Assembly (NCBI GenBank): GCA_028287465.1
Contig: JAQBPO010000016.1
Location: 1-44,403 of the forward strand
Origin: Fibrobacterota bacterium
GTDB lineage: Bacteria; Fibrobacterota; Fibrobacteria; UBA11236
Length of the DNA: 44,403 bases
Direction of reading: 5' to 3'
Shown here: piece after piece, positions 30,722 through 37,945 of the stretch
Position numbering within the stretch: position 1 is the first letter of the stretch
How the letters are laid out: every line of letters starts with the position of its first letter
The notes under the pieces: generated by a model
What the model saw: only the letters and a program-made list of their open reading frames with translations
Told to the model about the DNA's origin: nothing
The model's database searches: none
Program-made: the position numbers and the translations under genes

Positions 30722-31300
30722 ATGTCCGCATGGAAATCCACCCTACTGCTGCCGACCCTCTTCCACTCCGCCGCCTCCCCCTATGCGGTACTCTCCGGCA
30801 AGCCGGGCGCCGGAACGGCATCCAAGGCGGACGCCGGCGGCCCCACCCCTGCGGACGTCTGCGGCCTATGGTCCAGGGACGAGGAGTACGGGCGCGGCAA
30901 TCACGTTACCGTGGAAACCTTTTTCGCCGCGGACGGGACCTTCGAAACCCGCACCTACCTGGGCGACGGCGGCCAGGTGGAGAGGCTGCACGGATTCGGG
31001 ACCTGGGCCCTGCGGAAGGATTGCCTCGTGACCATGCCCAGTCCGGACCGATGCAGGACGGTGGGAGACCTGACCGATGGATGGGGCGATGCGACGAGCG
31101 AAAGGGTGCGGGTGGGGATGCGCGGCGGCGAAATGGCCTTGATCCTGGATATAGGAACCCTATTGGGCCGCTATGCCTCGCCGGGAAGGGCGTTCACCCT
31201 CCCGGACCTGTTCACTTCGGAACGGGGCGGGACGGGCTTATCCGCGCACGTGCTCCACGGCATTGCGGAAAATCCGGATGCCTTCGCCTTCGCCGCGTAG
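30722..31300 (+). CDS. Small secreted lipocalin-like protein, paralog B
   Basis: 192 residues from ATG 30722. The N-terminal ~20 residues are a weak signal peptide. The core aligns with paralog A along its length: 'GLWSRDEEYG', 'ETFFAADGTFETRTYLGDGG', 'GFGTWALRKD' and 'GRYASPGRAFTLPDLF'. The nucleotide sequence is also recognisably similar, so this is a duplication, though well diverged. The C-terminus differs from paralog A and runs 63 nt into the end of purQ on the opposite strand, which suggests the reading frame was extended or replaced there. Co-location with the GxGYxYP gene hints at a shared extracellular role. The function is unknown. Confidence 0.65.
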   Translation: MSAWKSTLLLPTLFHSAASPYAVLSGKPGAGTASKADAGGPTPADVCGLWSRDEEYGRGNHVTVETFFAADGTFETRTYLGDGGQVERLHGFGTWALRKDCLVTMPSPDRCRTVGDLTDGWGDATSERVRVGMRGGEMALILDIGTLLGRYASPGRAFTLPDLFTSERGGTGLSAHVLHGIAENPDAFAFAA

Positions 31301-32116
31301 GCCCAGCTTCTGCCATTGCGGATGGTTGGTGGCCAGCATATGCGCTTCCGGATGGGGCATGAGGCCGAAGATGAGGCCGTCCGCGCTGCAAATGCCCGCG
31401 ATATGGTCGATGGACCCGTTGGGGTTGGCCGGATAGGCGGCGGCGCCTTCCCCGGGATTGCCGCCGGTGGCGGTGCTGTAACGCAGGCTGATCTGGCCAT
31501 TGCGCTGCAAGGCGGCCAGGGTTTCCGCGTCGCGAGGGATGAACTTGCCTTCGCCATGGCGGATGGGCAGGTAGATGCGTTCGATGCCGCGGGTCCAGAT
31601 GCTTTTGGATCCCGGGTCTCCCGCCAGATGGCACCAGCGGTCCTCGAAGCGTCCGGAATCATTGTAGGTGAGGGTGGTGTCCTGTCGGAACCCGTTCCCG
31701 GCGCCGGCCGCGGTGGCATCGCCTGCTTTGGCCTTGGCCGCCTCGTCCGCTTCGGACTTGGCCCCATCAGCCAGGATGTCGGTCCTGCCGGGCAGGAGAC
31801 CCAACTTGACCAGCACCTGGAAGCCGTTGCAGATCCCGATCATGGGGATCTTGCGCTCGGCGGCCTTTCGCAGGTCCTCGGACAGGGAATGCTTGAGCTT
31901 GTTGGCGAAGACCCGTCCGCTGGCGATATGATCGCCGAAGGAAAAGCCGCCGGGAACGGCGATGACGTCGAACTCGGACAAGGCCGGTTTCCGCGCGATG
32001 AGATCGTTGATGTGGACGCGGCGGGGATCGCCGCCCGCGAGGGTGAAGCTTTGGGCCAGCTCGTTGTCCGAGTTGATCCCGTATCCGGTGATGATGGCTA
32101 TTCTAGGCTTACCCAT
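31238..32116 (-). CDS. purQ: Phosphoribosylformylglycinamidine synthase, glutaminase subunit PurQ
   Basis: A 292-residue class I glutamine amidotransferase that supplies ammonia to PurL in the fourth step of purine synthesis. The nucleophilic Cys is in 'GICNGFQVLVK', preceded by 'VPGGFSFGDHIASG', and the His-Glu pair is in 'MPHPEAHML'. Length exceeds the ~225 residues of small PurQ proteins because of an inserted Ala/Lys/Asp-rich stretch and 'FRQDTTLTYNDSGRFEDRW' after the nucleophile domain, as in larger PurQ forms. ATG 32116 begins 5 nt after the purL stop, indicating translational coupling. Its last 63 nt overlap the convergent paralog B gene. Confidence 0.92.
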   Translation of the reverse strand: MGKPRIAIITGYGINSDNELAQSFTLAGGDPRRVHINDLIARKPALSEFDVIAVPGGFSFGDHIASGRVFANKLKHSLSEDLRKAAERKIPMIGICNGFQVLVKLGLLPGRTDILADGAKSEADEAAKAKAGDATAAGAGNGFRQDTTLTYNDSGRFEDRWCHLAGDPGSKSIWTRGIERIYLPIRHGEGKFIPRDAETLAALQRNGQISLRYSTATGGNPGEGAAAYPANPNGSIDHIAGICSADGLIFGLMPHPEAHMLATNHPQWQKLGLRGEGEGIRIFRNAVEHVRG

Positions 32117-32121
32117 TGCGC

Positions 32122-35100
32122 TTACCAATCCAAAGGCCGGCGCCAGCGGGCGAACATCTCGTCCAGTCCGGCGGAAAAGAGGGGAGCGGACGAAGCGGCG
32201 CTTCCAGGGGAAGCGGCGCTTCCGGGGCCGCTCGGAGCGGCAGTGTCGCGGATCTCGAGTTCGGTACCCGAAGTCACTTCGCCGATACGGGCATAGGGTA
32301 TCCTGGCCGATGCGTCCGGACCGGAGACCGAGCCGCCCGCGGAACCGTTGCCGGCACCGTTGGCCGCGCCATTGAAGAGGGCCTCGAAGGCCGCCCGGTT
32401 CTGAGGCGTAACCGTGATGACGAAACGGCTCTGGCTTTCCGAAAAAAGCTTGACTCCCGAGGCCAGGGAACCGACCGCGCCGGACTCCAGTTCCACGGGG
32501 AGGGAAGCCAGATCCACCTTGGCGCCCAGGCGCCCGGCCATGCAGACCTCGGCCAGGGCGGTGAAGAGGCCGCCGTCCGAGCAGTCATGGGCCGAACGGA
32601 CCAGGCCTTGCTCGATGGCGTCCGCCAGGCGATGGTACAGGGCCAGGGCGGAAAGCGCATGGACCTTGGGGACCACGTTGCCGGTGACGCCGAGCAGGCG
32701 GAAATATTCCGAGGCGCCCAATTCGTCCCGGGTGACTCCCAGAACGTAGAGGTGATCGCCCGCGGCCTTGGCGTCCATGGTGATGGTCTTCTCCACGTCC
32801 GGGATCTTGCCGATGACGGTGAACAACAGGGTAGGGGGCACGGAGATCTTGTCCTTACCGCGGCCGTAGTCGTTCTTCATCGAGTCCTTGCCGGAGATGA
32901 GCGGCAGGGAGTAGGCGACGCAATAATCGTACAGGGCCTGGTTGGAGCGCACCAGCTGGGCCAGCTTGTACTGGCCGTCCGGGGTATTCTCCGATTCCAC
33001 GGGATCCGGCCAGCAGAAATTGTCCAAGCCGGCCAGGTTTCCTGGCCGGCCTCCCACGGCCACGGCATTGCGGACGGCTTCGTCCAGGGCGCAGGCGGTC
33101 ATGTGGTAGCAATCGATGTCGCTGTAGCGCGGCACGATGCCGTGCGAGACCACCAGGCCTTCCTTGCGGTCGTACAAGGGGCGGATCACGGCGGCATCGC
33201 TGGGGCCGTCGGCCTTTTCGCCCACGAAGGGTTTGATGACGCTCATGCCCTGCACTTCATGGTCGTACTGGCGGACCCAGCTTTCCTTGGAGCAGATATT
33301 GAGCGCCGACAGCAGGGTCAGGGCGTCTTCCTTGAGATCGCGGGCCTTCCAGAAACCGGTGGGCGGCTCGCCATGGCGGGGCGGGGTCCAGCGGGCCTTG
33401 AGATGCAGCTTCGGGTTCCCGTCGTGCAGGAAGTCCATGGAAAGGGAGCAGGCCAGCTTGCCTTGGTAGTAGGCTTCGAAGAGGCCGTCGGCGGAGAACT
33501 CGCCCAGGTCCGTGGCTTCCACGCCGCGGCGGCCGGCCAGGTCCAGGAAGGCGGCCAGCTTTTCCGGCGGTACCGCGAAGGACATGCGCTCCTGCGCTTC
33601 CGAGACCAGGATTTCCCAAGGGTCCAATCCCGGATACTTGAGCGGGGCCTTGTCCAGATGGATCTTGCAGCCGCCGCCGGCCCCATTGGGGCCCTTGGTC
33701 TCGCGCGCCATTTCACCGAGGGACGAGGAGAGGCCTCCCGCGCCGTTATCGGTCACGAAGCGGTAGAGGCCCGCATCGCGCGCTTCCAGCAGGAAATCCG
33801 CCAGTTTCTTCTGGGTGATGGGGTCGCCGATTTGAACCGCTGAAGTGGGGGACGCTTCCGTCATGGCCGCGGAGGAGAACGTGGCCCCGTGGATGCCGTC
33901 CTTGCCGATGCGCCCGCCGGCCATGAGGATGCGATCCCCGGGCTCGATGGTCTTCTGCCAGGAAGGCTTGCCGTTGACGATGGCGGGATGCAGGCCGCCC
34001 GTGCCGCAGAACACCAGGGGCTTGCCCAGGAAGCGATCGTCGAATACGATGCTGCCGTTCACGGTAGGGATGCCGCTCTCGTTGCCGCCGTCCTTCACCC
34101 CGCGATGCACTTCCTTGAAGATGCGGCGGGGATGGTGGAGCTTCTCCGGGATGGGCTTGTCGTAGAAGGGCGAGGCGAAGCAGAACACGTCCGTATTGAA
34201 GATCGGCCGCGAACCCATGCCGCTGCCGAGGATGTCCCGATTGACGCCGACGATGCCGGTCATGGCGCCGCCGTAGGGGTCCAGGGCGCTCGGGGAATTG
34301 TGGGTCTCGGCCTTCATGCTCACGTCCCAGTCTTCCGTGAACGCGATGATGCCCGCATTGTCGGTGAAGACGGACTTGAGCCAGGGGGCCTTGGGCCTCA
34401 CCTTCTCGGTCGCGGCCTTGATATAGGTCTTGTACAGGGAGGAGATGTTCTCGCGCTTTCCCGTTTCATCCGTGTATTCGATTGCGGCGGCGAAGATCTT
34501 ATGCTTGCAATGCTCGCTCCAGGTCTGGGCCAGCACTTCCAGCTCCACGTCCGTGGCGTCCGCGGGCAATCCCGCCTGGGTCCGGTGGGCGATGGTGGCG
34601 GGGGAGGCGTAATAGGCCTTGATGGCGCGCATCTCCTCGATGGTGAGGGCCAGGACCTTCTCGTCCGAAAGCTTCTGAAGGGCCTCGTCCGTTTCCGGCA
34701 AGGGGATGGCGCGGACCTGGGGCTGGTGGTGGCTGTCCACCTTGCCCGAGACCTTGGGCAGGTAGGGGTTGGTGGACCATTCCTCGCGGGAGCGGATCAG
34801 GTAGGTTTCGATGAGGGGGTTGGCGAGCAGCTTGGTGGCGATGGTCTCGGCGTCCGCGCGCGTGAGCTTGCCCCAGAACTGGAACTGACGGCTCGTGTAT
34901 ACCAGATCGCCGTCCGCGAGGGGCCGGCCGAGCAGGTCGGAAACGCCTTCGCGGCTGGAACGGCCCACATTGTCGGTGACGCCGGGCTTATAGCCCACTT
35001 CGATGAGGAAATCGAACGCCGCGCCGGCGGCCCCCGCCGCGGAACCGGGGGCTCCCGCCAGATGGGTATCGATGGCGAAGGTTTCCGTGATGGGATCGGT

Positions 35101-35283
35101 CAGGAGCTCCTGGGCGATCCGGGTCTTTTCCGCTGCGCCCAATTCCATTTCCAAGGTGTATACCGAAAGGGTCGCCGCTTTTTCCACCGGGAGACGGAAG
35201 TTCTCGTGGAGGGTGGCGAGGATTTTACGGGCCTGGGAATCGGTGGAGGGGCTTTTCTGTCCGACTTCGATGCGAGTGAGCAA
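32122..35283 (-). CDS. purL: Phosphoribosylformylglycinamidine synthase PurL with N-terminal PurS-like region
   Basis: 1,053 residues. PurL converts FGAR, ATP and ammonia to FGAM. The N-terminal ~190 residues contain PurS-like elements ('EVGYKPGVTDNVGRSSREGV' and 'VYTSRQFQFWG'). The linker has 'ADATDVELEVLAQTWSEHCK'. The catalytic domains have 'ETHNSPSALDPYGGAMTG', 'GRIGKDGIHGATFSSA', 'GAGGLSSSLGEMA', 'GGRPGNLAGLDNF' and 'AHDCSDGGLFTALAEV'. There is no glutaminase domain; PurQ is encoded just downstream. The common 'HNHPS' motif reads 'HNSPS', as I recall for other long bacterial PurL proteins. The start is TTG 35283, with AGAGG 5 nt upstream on this strand. The C-terminal ~45 residues contain a Gly/Ala/Ser/Pro-rich insert from repetitive GC-rich DNA. 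Confidence 0.94.
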   Translation of the reverse strand: MLTRIEVGQKSPSTDSQARKILATLHENFRLPVEKAATLSVYTLEMELGAAEKTRIAQELLTDPITETFAIDTHLAGAPGSAAGAAGAAFDFLIEVGYKPGVTDNVGRSSREGVSDLLGRPLADGDLVYTSRQFQFWGKLTRADAETIATKLLANPLIETYLIRSREEWSTNPYLPKVSGKVDSHHQPQVRAIPLPETDEALQKLSDEKVLALTIEEMRAIKAYYASPATIAHRTQAGLPADATDVELEVLAQTWSEHCKHKIFAAAIEYTDETGKRENISSLYKTYIKAATEKVRPKAPWLKSVFTDNAGIIAFTEDWDVSMKAETHNSPSALDPYGGAMTGIVGVNRDILGSGMGSRPIFNTDVFCFASPFYDKPIPEKLHHPRRIFKEVHRGVKDGGNESGIPTVNGSIVFDDRFLGKPLVFCGTGGLHPAIVNGKPSWQKTIEPGDRILMAGGRIGKDGIHGATFSSAAMTEASPTSAVQIGDPITQKKLADFLLEARDAGLYRFVTDNGAGGLSSSLGEMARETKGPNGAGGGCKIHLDKAPLKYPGLDPWEILVSEAQERMSFAVPPEKLAAFLDLAGRRGVEATDLGEFSADGLFEAYYQGKLACSLSMDFLHDGNPKLHLKARWTPPRHGEPPTGFWKARDLKEDALTLLSALNICSKESWVRQYDHEVQGMSVIKPFVGEKADGPSDAAVIRPLYDRKEGLVVSHGIVPRYSDIDCYHMTACALDEAVRNAVAVGGRPGNLAGLDNFCWPDPVESENTPDGQYKLAQLVRSNQALYDYCVAYSLPLISGKDSMKNDYGRGKDKISVPPTLLFTVIGKIPDVEKTITMDAKAAGDHLYVLGVTRDELGASEYFRLLGVTGNVVPKVHALSALALYHRLADAIEQGLVRSAHDCSDGGLFTALAEVCMAGRLGAKVDLASLPVELESGAVGSLASGVKLFSESQSRFVITVTPQNRAAFEALFNGAANGAGNGSAGGSVSGPDASARIPYARIGEVTSGTELEIRDTAAPSGPGSAASPGSAASSAPLFSAGLDEMFARWRRPLDW

Positions 35284-35333
35284 ACGGTCCTCTGGATGGG
35301 GTTTCCGGAGGAATCCGGGACCCGCCGGTAAAT

Positions 35334-35636
35334 TTAGTACCCGGGGCTCCCGGGTCCAATCCCGGGGCGGCCGGCGGGGCGATTTCCTCCCGAAAGGGAC
35401 AAAAGGACCACCTTATCATAGGAGATGGTGTAGAAAAGGGAGAGACGTGGGCTGTCCGCCCCCGCTTCCATGGCCAGAACGTAGACCGGCGGGTCCTGCC
35501 AGACCAGGCGGCCCCGTTCCGCTTCCCGTTCCAGGACCCATTTGGCCCCTTCGAGGAATTCATCCGTCCGCCCGGCGGTCATCATGGCGAGGCCGGCGGA
35601 TTCCAGGGATTCCGGAACGATCAGGGTCCTTTTCAT
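35334..35636 (-). CDS. Small protein paired with a Panacea gene; possible RelE/ParE-like toxin
   Basis: 100 residues from ATG 35636, with AAGGA just upstream, 12 nt after the stop of the Panacea-domain gene. Helical N-terminal half ('EFLEGAKWVLEREAERGRL') then strands 'PPVYVLAME', 'RLSLFYTIS' and 'KVVLLSLS'. This helix-then-beta order with '(R)LxxxYxI..(D)xVxLLxL' resembles RelE/ParE-type toxins, but no catalytic residues can be assigned and the match is weak. The low-complexity tail (Gly/Pro) is unusual. The neighbour is a known type of antitoxin domain, which makes a toxin role plausible. Alternatively it is an uncharacterised partner protein. Confidence 0.5.
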   Translation of the reverse strand: MKRTLIVPESLESAGLAMMTAGRTDEFLEGAKWVLEREAERGRLVWQDPPVYVLAMEAGADSPRLSLFYTISYDKVVLLSLSGGNRPAGRPGIGPGSPGY

Positions 35637-35648
35637 GGCCGGGTCCTT

Positions 35649-36203
35649 TCAGCCGGCCATGGCCGGGGAGTCGATGAGCGGTGAGGTAGGGAATGGGAAC
35701 GAGGTGAGCGGGGCGACCAGGGAGAGATGGTAGGGGATGGCCTCCCGGGGCCCCGCCAGATCCCAGGGCAGATCCAGAAGGTCCGGCCCATGGCTTCCGT
35801 CAACCGCTTGATCCCGGTAGAACCGCACCACGGTCTCGACCAAGGCGATTTCCTGGCCGTCGAACCGCCTCAAGGCCGGCTCGCGCAAGGCGAAGGGAAA
35901 GAGGCGGACATGCCACCCGTCTCCGCAGGCTTCTTCCCGCATTTCCAAATCGCCCGCTTCGATCATGGATCGCAGAACCCTGCGCATGATCCTCGGGGCG
36001 GGGGAGCGGATGCCGCGACGGTAGGTCTGCCCCGTGATGGGATAGCCGTGCAGGCGGAAGTGCAGGAAGTCCGCCTGGAACAGAATGCGGTCCAGATGGG
36101 CGGTATCGAAATCCTCCCAGTCCGCGCAACGTGCGGCGATATGGAGAATCAATTCACGCAGGCGCATTTCATCCGCGGGGAAAGGGTTCAATTTCGATTC
36201 CAT
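35649..36203 (-). CDS. Panacea (DUF4065/SocA-type) domain protein, probable antitoxin
   Basis: 184 residues. The core 'LDRILFQADFLHFRLHGYPI' followed by 'TGQTYRRGIRSPAPRIM' and 'LRSMIEAGDLEM' matches the Panacea domain. This is a promiscuous antitoxin domain seen with many unrelated toxins and also in phage GepA/SocA proteins. The usual 'kllyladfl.~~~~g.pitg..y.~~~~GPvp' is clear, with 'GIRSPAP' in place of the common 'GPVP'. The C-terminal extension after 'FYRDQ' is Pro/Ser rich. It is the first gene of a two-gene unit, with a small RelE/ParE-like protein 12 nt downstream. Repeats of GTAACGG lie in its upstream region. It sits between purL and the beta-helix gene. Confidence 0.8.
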   Translation of the reverse strand: MESKLNPFPADEMRLRELILHIAARCADWEDFDTAHLDRILFQADFLHFRLHGYPITGQTYRRGIRSPAPRIMRRVLRSMIEAGDLEMREEACGDGWHVRLFPFALREPALRRFDGQEIALVETVVRFYRDQAVDGSHGPDLLDLPWDLAGPREAIPYHLSLVAPLTSFPFPTSPLIDSPAMAG

Positions 36204-36237: not shown

Positions 36238-36266
36238 CCTTACGGGCAGGTAACGGATTGTAACGG
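36238..36266 (-). promoter_or_regulatory. GTAACGG repeats before the Panacea operon (operator candidate)
   Basis: GTAACGG occurs at 36250-36256 and 36260-36266, exactly 10 bp (one helical turn) apart, with an inverted CTTACGG-like copy just to the left (about 36239-36245). They lie 35-65 nt before the Panacea start at 36203, where an autoregulatory operator would be expected. Confidence 0.4.
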
Positions 36267-36305: not shown

Positions 36306-37505
36306 TCACGCGCCCGCCGGTTCCGCAGTCTGTCCCGCGGCCTTCAGGAAGGCCTCATCCCCGTCGATCACCAGGCCCGAAAGGTTCAGATCCCGGAATT
36401 GCCGGTCCTTCAAGGTGACGTTCCTGAGGGTAACGTCCACGAGACGGCAATCCGTGAAGAGGACCTTGTCCATCCTGCAGTTCTCGAAGCGGACGTCCTT
36501 GAGGCCCTGCTTCTTCCAGGACCAGCGATCCGAACCGGTAAAGACCACATCCGTAAGGCCGCAGCCCTTGAAGGCCACGCGCTTGAGGCTGGTGAGGCGC
36601 ACCATCAGATCCTTGGCCTCGCAGTCCTCCAGGGAGACGGCGGCGATATGGGAGGACTGGATCTCGCTCCCGGAAACCCCGGTCCGGACCAGGTTCAGAT
36701 CCGAGACGGCGGTCGCATTGATGAGCAGATCCGCCACCTTGCTATTGTCCGCCACGCGGAAGTTCTTGATGGAGGCGCCCTGCACGCGTACGCCGCGCAC
36801 CACGCTGCCGCCGGCGCAATGGAAGTCCGCCACCTTGGAGCCGTTGATGGCCAGGCCCCGCACGGTCGCGCCCTCCACGCTCCAATCCTCCGTCGCGCTG
36901 GCGCGGATCTCGCAGCCGATCACCTTGCCGTCCTTGACGGAGAAATCCGCGGCCTTGCTCATGTCGATGGTATTGTCGATCATCTCCGCCCGGTCCAGGC
37001 GCATGTCCTTGACCGAAGACATGCGTATGGTGTTCCCGGTGAAGGTATGTTCCTTGCCGGTAGGCAAATCGAAGCGGGACATATGGACATGGTTATTGCC
37101 CGACAGGCCGCCCGTCGCGCCGCCGCCGAAACCGCCGAAGCCTGCGCCCCCGAAGCCCGCGAAACCACCCCCCCCACCTTCATTCCCGCTCCCGAAAGCC
37201 TGGCCTTGGTATCCGGTGGAAGCGCCGCCGCCGCCCGCTCCGGGCTTGTCCCAGCCGAAGGCCGCGTCCAGGGCGGACTTGACCGTGGTGTTCATCTTGT
37301 TGAGGATGGGTTCCACGAAGGACCCGTCCCAATTGCCTCCGAAGAGGGAATCCAGGCCGGACTTTTCCCCGCCGGATCCGGGTTTGCCGGACGCGCCGTC
37401 TTCTTCCTTGCGGGTGAGTTCCGCCAACAGGTCCGCCGCCTGCTCGTCGGTGAGGACGCCGTCCTTGTTCATCTTCAATATCTGTTGGATCTCCGCCTTG
37501 ATCAT
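36306..37505 (-). CDS. SHOCT-like N-terminus, Gly-rich linker and pentapeptide-like beta-helix protein
   Basis: 399 residues from ATG 37505, with AAGGAG upstream. Residues 1-35 ('IQQILKMNKDGVLTDEQAADLLAEL') are the short helical SHOCT-like/LiaX N-terminal module. A region with 'FVEPILNKMNTTVKSALDAAFGW' and a long Gly-rich linker (about 105-145) follow. The remaining ~250 residues are a degenerate repeat of short strands ('KVADFHCAGGSVVRGVRVQG', 'DVRFENCRMDKVLFTDCRLV' and similar), consistent with a pentapeptide-like right-handed beta-helix. There is no signal peptide, so the protein is probably cytoplasmic or membrane-associated. It lies 20 nt after a DUF2089 regulator, and proteins with this N-terminal module often pair with DUF2089. 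Partner and function are unknown. Confidence 0.75.
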   Translation of the reverse strand: MIKAEIQQILKMNKDGVLTDEQAADLLAELTRKEEDGASGKPGSGGEKSGLDSLFGGNWDGSFVEPILNKMNTTVKSALDAAFGWDKPGAGGGGASTGYQGQAFGSGNEGGGGGFAGFGGAGFGGFGGGATGGLSGNNHVHMSRFDLPTGKEHTFTGNTIRMSSVKDMRLDRAEMIDNTIDMSKAADFSVKDGKVIGCEIRASATEDWSVEGATVRGLAINGSKVADFHCAGGSVVRGVRVQGASIKNFRVADNSKVADLLINATAVSDLNLVRTGVSGSEIQSSHIAAVSLEDCEAKDLMVRLTSLKRVAFKGCGLTDVVFTGSDRWSWKKQGLKDVRFENCRMDKVLFTDCRLVDVTLRNVTLKDRQFRDLNLSGLVIDGDEAFLKAAGQTAEPAGA

Positions 37506-37525
37506 CCGTCGCTCCTTCGCATCGG

Positions 37526-37945
37526 TCAGGGTTTGGCGCGCAAGCGCTTGATACGTTTCATGGCTTCGTCGAAAGGGATTTCCCCGGCCTGCAGCTGCGC
37601 CAGGATCTGCCCGGCATCGGGCTGGGCTTCGACCTCTTCGGCGGCCTTCGCGTCCGCGTCCTTGCCGTCCGGGCCTTCTTCGCCCGCGAGCTTGTGCTTG
37701 AGGGCGGTGAGGCGGGCGCGGATGGTGGGATAGCTGAGGCCGAGGGCGGATTCCATGTCCCGGATGCGGCCTTCGCAGCGCACGAAGATGCGGAGGAAGT
37801 GCAGGTCATCCTGGGCCAGGGTGGCGAACTCGTTGAGCTGGAAGGGGCCTTCGACCTTGATGTCGCAATGGGGGCAGGCGAGGACCTTGGGCTGGAGGGC
37901 GGCCTGGCAGGAGGGGCAGGCCAGGTTGGAGTCGATGAGTTTCAT
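37526..37945 (-). CDS. DUF2089 family zinc-ribbon/HTH protein
   Basis: 139 residues. An N-terminal zinc ribbon 'CPSCQAALQPKVLACPHC' (Cys-x2-Cys ... Cys-x2-Cys) leads into 'PFQLNEFATLAQDDLHFLRIFVRCEGRI' (split for length: the helical part ends at Ile) and a helix-turn-helix 'ALGLSYPTIRARLTAL'. The C-terminal region has a SHOCT-like short helix ('AGQILAQLQAGEIPFDEAMKRIK'). This is the DUF2089 pattern; members are small DNA-binding regulators encoded beside SHOCT/LiaX-type genes. It has no ribosome binding site but has a -10 box 7 nt before its ATG, so the transcript may be leaderless. Confidence 0.88.
   Translation of the reverse strand: MKLIDSNLACPSCQAALQPKVLACPHCDIKVEGPFQLNEFATLAQDDLHFLRIFVRCEGRIRDMESALGLSYPTIRARLTALKHKLAGEEGPDGKDADAKAAEEVEAQPDAGQILAQLQAGEIPFDEAMKRIKRLRAKP

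Follow-up and report, generated by a model that had tools for sequence, protein, structure and literature searches.

A fixed Panacea-domain gene and its patchily retained small neighbor: a possible domesticated toxin-antitoxin module in one Fibrobacteria genus

The window (the whole stretch of DNA that was analyzed, 44,403 nucleotides) is part of a 5.8-Mb draft Fibrobacterota genome, here G000; five further genomes of the same genus are called G155 to G159. It carries a two-gene unit upstream of purL (Table 1), and the two open reading frames lie where the sequence-only reading had placed them, with the antitoxin-like gene first. The orthologues of the Panacea protein begin at a place that corresponds to a TTG codon at 36191, which may be the true start of the window protein. 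The junction between the Panacea gene and the small gene is CTGAAAGGACCCGGCCATG, in which the second gene has its ribosome-binding site, AAAGGA, lying across the stop codon of the first. Sites of the AAAGGA type are found at the small gene in three species (G000, G158, and G159), and the layout is the same in all of them, with a spacing of 12 nt in G000 and G159 and 13 nt in G158. Because the ribosome-binding site of the small gene overlaps the Panacea stop codon, the sequence indicates that the small gene is translationally coupled to the Panacea gene. Small-protein orthologues in G158 and G159 are 66 to 68% identical, and dN/dS is about 0.2 to 0.27 for the small gene across the three species and about 0.2 to 0.3 for the Panacea gene among closer pairs, values that are rough in that dS is near or above 1. 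Since both reading frames have orthologues with dN/dS of this order and conserved synteny, both are real genes that, to judge from these comparisons, are under purifying selection.

Table 1. Positions of the genes and DNA elements of the locus within the window
Feature	Position	Strand	Remarks
PurL (PurS-PurL fusion), TTG start	32122..35283	-	conserved downstream neighbor
GGTACTAAATTTACCG (short form, TACTAAATTTA element)	35327..35342	-	upstream of purL; overlaps 3' end/stop codon of small ORF
Small partner gene, 100 aa, acidic, no known family	35334..35636	-	orthologues in G158 and G159 only, remnant in G155
12-nt gap between both genes	35637..35648	-	Panacea stop TGA overlaps Shine-Dalgarno-like AAAGGA of small gene
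Panacea (SocA/PanA, DUF4065) protein, 184 aa	35649..36203	-	stand-alone domain, without HTH or PAD1
GTTACAATCCGTTAC, direct repeat, 10-nt period	36250..36264	-	upstream of Panacea gene; conserved in six of six genomes (window and L029 to L033)
Pentapeptide-repeat protein, SHOCT-like N terminus	36306..37505	-	conserved upstream neighbor
DUF2089 zinc-ribbon/HTH protein	37526..37945	-	conserved upstream neighbor

Each of the six genomes in the genus keeps the order DUF2089, pentapeptide/SHOCT, Panacea, small gene (where present), and purL. In the sister genus the module is absent, and other genes lie upstream of purL. A mobile or defense-island setting was considered and rejected, as the neighbors (transketolase, glutamine synthetase, purL/purQ, and an efflux pump) are housekeeping genes. 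The DUF2089 regulator and the pentapeptide protein (36306 to 37945, minus strand) form a pair that is fixed in the genus; the pentapeptide protein shares the SHOCT-like element of DUF2089 proteins and, across the rest of the phylum, has just two weak relatives. On the other side (31238 to 35283, minus strand), PurS is fused to PurL in a protein of 1,053 amino acids, and the glutaminase PurQ (296 amino acids) is encoded by a separate gene that overlaps the end of purL.

Two conserved DNA elements flank the gene pair. The upstream one, GTTACAATCCGTTAC, consists of two GTTAC units 10 nt apart between the pentapeptide and Panacea genes and is a possible promoter or operator. The other, GGTACTAAATTTACCG, is kept upstream of purL in all six genomes (the most distant carry two or three changes) and is probably a promoter or regulatory element of purL. 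The GTTACA repeat was rejected as the mark of a regulon: with up to two mismatches allowed, there are 15 sites against 25 in a reversed control, so there is no genome-wide enrichment. One further exact copy (GTTACAAACCGTTAC, G000 C33:28126) lies about 80 to 95 nt upstream of a short open reading frame that is followed by a response-regulator-like one.

The sequence-only reading had called the 184-residue protein a clear Panacea core. The identity is real, yet it is not clear from the window sequence, which scores 17.2 bits against PF13274, under the Pfam cut-off of 25.7; a Panacea scan of the window's own genome reported nothing. The G155 orthologue passes the same cut-off at 31.7 bits, and each of the eight sequences in the family alignment matches the PF13274 model. 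When a hidden Markov model built from the six orthologues was run against 428 open reading frames around canonical Panacea loci, the top matches were canonical Panacea reading frames at L034 (2e-16) and L035 (4e-16), with the next ones starting at 5e-6. The AlphaFold2 model of the protein (pLDDT 87, pTM 0.84) had a single viral match under E 0.001 in BFVD, a SocA-like Panacea protein (E 8e-5, TM 0.71). Given the score of the G155 orthologue, the six-orthologue model, and the predicted fold, the window protein is a divergent Panacea (SocA/PanA) protein. Among PDB entries, the model matched only 7yk3, a DarTG complex (Z 7.4), which lies within noise as the search tool describes it and was set aside. 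The matched chain has 187 residues and comes from the Mycobacterium tuberculosis DarTG complex (134 residues, rmsd 4.4); it scores about one Z unit over unrelated winged-helix proteins. It may point to a connection of Panacea with a DarTG antitoxin domain.

The GPVP motif of the domain had been thought to be changed to GIRSPAP in the window protein. This was a misalignment, as GPVP corresponds to SPAP in the family alignment, in which the G158 row is short of its last two residues, without effect. The partner-bearing genomes have SPAP (G000 and G159) or SPGP (G158), and the three without an intact small gene (G155 to G157) have GPSP, GPTP, or GPAP. As the genomes with the partner make up a single clade, this correlation between an SPxP motif and the presence of the partner may reflect a single event. 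Both the G and the V of GPV differ in the window protein (SPA). In Vibrio PanA, single changes in the GPV motif were tolerated and the double change G62A V64S abolished neutralization (PMC8832971). The canonical proteins at L034 and L035, which pass the Pfam cut-off, have GPT, and so an exact GPV marks the family without being required.

Next, we examined the distribution of the two genes in the genus, which rests on just six genomes, all of them draft assemblies. All six encode the Panacea protein, at 49 to 65% identity, and far more distant relatives occur in two genomes from a different family. Half of the six (G000, G158, and G159) have an intact small gene. Sequence and profile searches found no copy of it in G155 to G157, and at the corresponding spot in G156 and G157 there is nothing. 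In G155, the Panacea reading frame continues into RRDEFQDGAHWVWARDSGRE at the syntenic place, a remnant of about 20 residues fused to the Panacea protein that matches small-protein residues 23 to 41, with a score that was reached by zero to one of 5,000 shuffles. A PurL tree has the form (G155,((G157,G156),(G000,(G159,G158)))), with G155 as the deepest branch. In the simplest history, the ancestor of the genus probably already carried the small gene, which decayed in G155 and was lost in the G156/G157 clade; the ancestral presence depends on the one short remnant in G155. Without that remnant, the pattern would be accounted for by one gain within a single clade.

Loss of the partner has not visibly relaxed the constraint on the Panacea protein. 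It is 60% identical between the partner-less sisters G156 and G157, whose PurL proteins are 85% identical, and 62 to 67% identical between the partner-bearing G000 and G158/G159, where PurL identity is 86 to 88%. Our main argument is that a Panacea protein equally constrained without its partner must have a partner-independent function.

The small protein matched no toxin model in Pfam, NCBIfam, PADLOC, or PHROGs at E values up to 10, where one meaningless match was returned, and it had no PDB sequence match. No relatives were found in plasmids or in IMG/VR, a peptide-pattern search of GTDB contigs returned the same two loci and no other species, and a profile search across the phylum detected no relatives elsewhere. 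The weak matches were discarded as chance stretches inside unrelated reading frames, and a lipoprotein match upstream of purL in G160 was judged to be chance as well, lying on the opposite strand in an EF-hand-like stretch. The small proteins of the three species are acidic (pI 5.4, 5.4, and 4.9; 5.4 for the window protein). A helix-then-strand order like that of RelE/ParE had been proposed for it, and the three-sequence model does give the order E-H-H-E-E-E-E; the model is of low confidence (pLDDT 50) and without a significant fold or sequence match. Its structural matches included, amid noise, BrnT (Z 3.8) and RelE and YoeB (both Z 3.1), with unrelated domains higher, and we dismissed fold searches with this model as meaningless at pLDDT 50. 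The conserved end of the protein, PRLSLFYTISYDKVVLLSL, resembles what we take to be the last hairpin of RelE/ParE proteins. The odds of RelE/ParE descent are roughly even.

The sequence-only reading had taken the two genes for a toxin-antitoxin pair. Several observations fit that proposal: a true Panacea domain, the antitoxin-first order at 12 to 13 nt, the overlapping ribosome-binding site, and a pair kept in three species with a trace in a fourth. Against it, the Panacea protein is equally constrained without the partner, which counts against a toxin-antitoxin pair because a dedicated antitoxin would not need that constraint, and no toxin family matches the small protein, which is acidic. 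The search for the same pair in related genomes turned up the Panacea gene without the small gene, one half of what the first reading had named as refuting the pair; the other half did not turn up, as no recognized toxin stands in its place and purL follows directly. The first reading was correct about a Panacea gene with a small gene coupled to it and too confident in the toxin. We favor a two-gene module that derives from a Panacea toxin-antitoxin pair, in which the antitoxin has become a domesticated part of the core chromosome in one Fibrobacteria genus and the partner is dispensable and being lost, an account to which we give an even chance. The stand-alone Panacea gene is inherited vertically at one fixed chromosomal place. 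Under this account, where both genes are present, the Panacea protein would bind the small protein, a product of the same mRNA, and keep it inactive, as in PanAT; the small protein would probably be toxin derived. Being equally constrained after loss of the partner, the Panacea protein must also have a job of its own, such as sensing, regulation, or neutralizing something encoded elsewhere. The closest canonical relatives, at L034 and L035 (18 to 19% identity), are too distant to show that the gene originated from a toxin-antitoxin pair.

The main rival to domestication is an active PanAT-type (type II) pair. Here the small protein would be a working toxin from a family not yet described, possibly of RelE/ParE topology, that Panacea neutralizes by direct binding, and loss of the toxin with retention of the antitoxin would be the normal route of decay. 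The order, spacing, and coupling of the genes in three species agree with this, as does the E-H-H-E-E-E-E order of the model; a stand-alone Panacea protein can neutralize directly (PMC10440598), and many PanA partners have no known domain (PMC8832971). The undiminished constraint on partner-less Panacea is again at odds with it, the two altered GPV positions are those of the double change that abolished neutralization in Vibrio (PMC8832971), and the small protein has a pI of 4.9 to 5.4 versus 9.4 for the RelE-like partner at L035. With no family match and vertical inheritance in the core genome as well, we regard an active pair as unlikely, if worth keeping in view. We are still more doubtful of a bolder version. 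In it, the small protein would work as a toxin, its undescribed family confined to this genus, and would be neutralized by a core-genome Panacea protein whose interface has been rewired (SPxP); the toxin would have been lost in several lineages that kept the domesticated antitoxin for a new cellular role. If true, it would offer a natural series from addiction module to core gene.

The third-ranked reading, which we find improbable, is that there is no toxin-antitoxin system here and that Panacea and a nontoxic small protein are accessory members of a genus-specific DUF2089/pentapeptide operon, with the Panacea fold as sensor or regulator. Four to five same-strand genes do keep their order in the six genomes, the pentapeptide gene is also essentially genus specific, a sensor role for Panacea is favored in PMC10440598, and the PanAT screen of PMC8832971 left out loci with longer conserved operons. 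However, the conserved element just upstream of the Panacea gene suggests a promoter of its own, and tight two-gene coupling is typical of PanAT pairs. Finally, the idea that the small reading frame is no gene, for which its absence from three of six genomes might speak, is scarcely credible, being contradicted by the selection pattern together with the 66 to 68% identical orthologues in two species and the conserved ribosome-binding site.

Taken together, the locus has more the look of a toxin-antitoxin module that was domesticated or is decaying than of a new one in working order, and it is a real variation on an established pattern. Most of what is known of Panacea antitoxins concerns mobile genes that repeatedly swap toxins. 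A Panacea gene fixed across a genus, with a partner that is intact, fossil, or gone depending on the species, provides a natural series for the study of Panacea's own role, for which a sensor has been proposed (PMC10440598). The same series bears on how a toxin-antitoxin module becomes domesticated.

Compared with the RelE/ParE superfamily, the small protein shares the predicted strand-helix-helix-strands order and a size of about 86 to 108 amino acids but differs in being acidic, in having no sequence match, and in a low-confidence model with no significant fold match. SocAB of Caulobacter is a type VI system in which the Panacea protein SocA serves as a ClpXP adaptor for SocB. The window locus likewise pairs a Panacea-domain protein with a small partner gene, whereas no SocB-like partner was recognized at it. 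With PanA/PanAT systems (PF13274; PMC8832971, PMC10440598), it has in common the Panacea fold and motif region, the stand-alone domain, the antitoxin-first order, a small gene that follows within 100 nt, and the occurrence of the pair in more than one species. It departs from them in its core-genome synteny in every genome of the genus, a partner missing in half of these, a family below the Pfam cut-off, changes at both variable GPV positions, and a partner without a known family. PMC8832971 also admitted no conserved operon of more than three genes, and the window locus falls outside this limit, with DUF2089-pentapeptide-Panacea-[small]-purL in six of six genomes. A partner-less Panacea gene is not new in itself, since about half of the DUF4065 proteins in that survey lay outside predicted toxin-antitoxin loci (PMC8832971).

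Within the phylum, PF13274 matches over the cut-off are patchy (52 of 168 genomes), and nearly all of the canonical Panacea loci that we examined continue with a gene for 101 to 159 amino acids, within 15 nt or overlapping. In a profile search, the small protein had no similarity to any downstream partner at these loci. A recurrent PanAT-like pair occurs in genus g9 (L054, L056, L059 to L061, L063, L064, L066, and L069), where a Panacea protein of 180 to 191 amino acids is followed 3 nt later by a 135-amino-acid protein that begins M(D/E)LPK(E/D)LTGRLYSER. At L034, a Panacea gene (2168 to 2752) close to that of L035 precedes an apparently degraded remnant of an L035-type RelE-like partner, another toxin loss in the phylum. 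L035 itself, which with L034 holds the closest Panacea relatives of the window protein, also has a small gene downstream. Its Panacea protein carries an HTH domain and is followed by a basic 130-amino-acid protein with weak RelE similarity (PF06296, E 0.004), to which the small protein shows no similarity, whereas the window Panacea protein stands alone beside an acidic partner. What sets the window module apart from its relatives in the phylum is its fixed location and a partner that is both dispensable and acidic.
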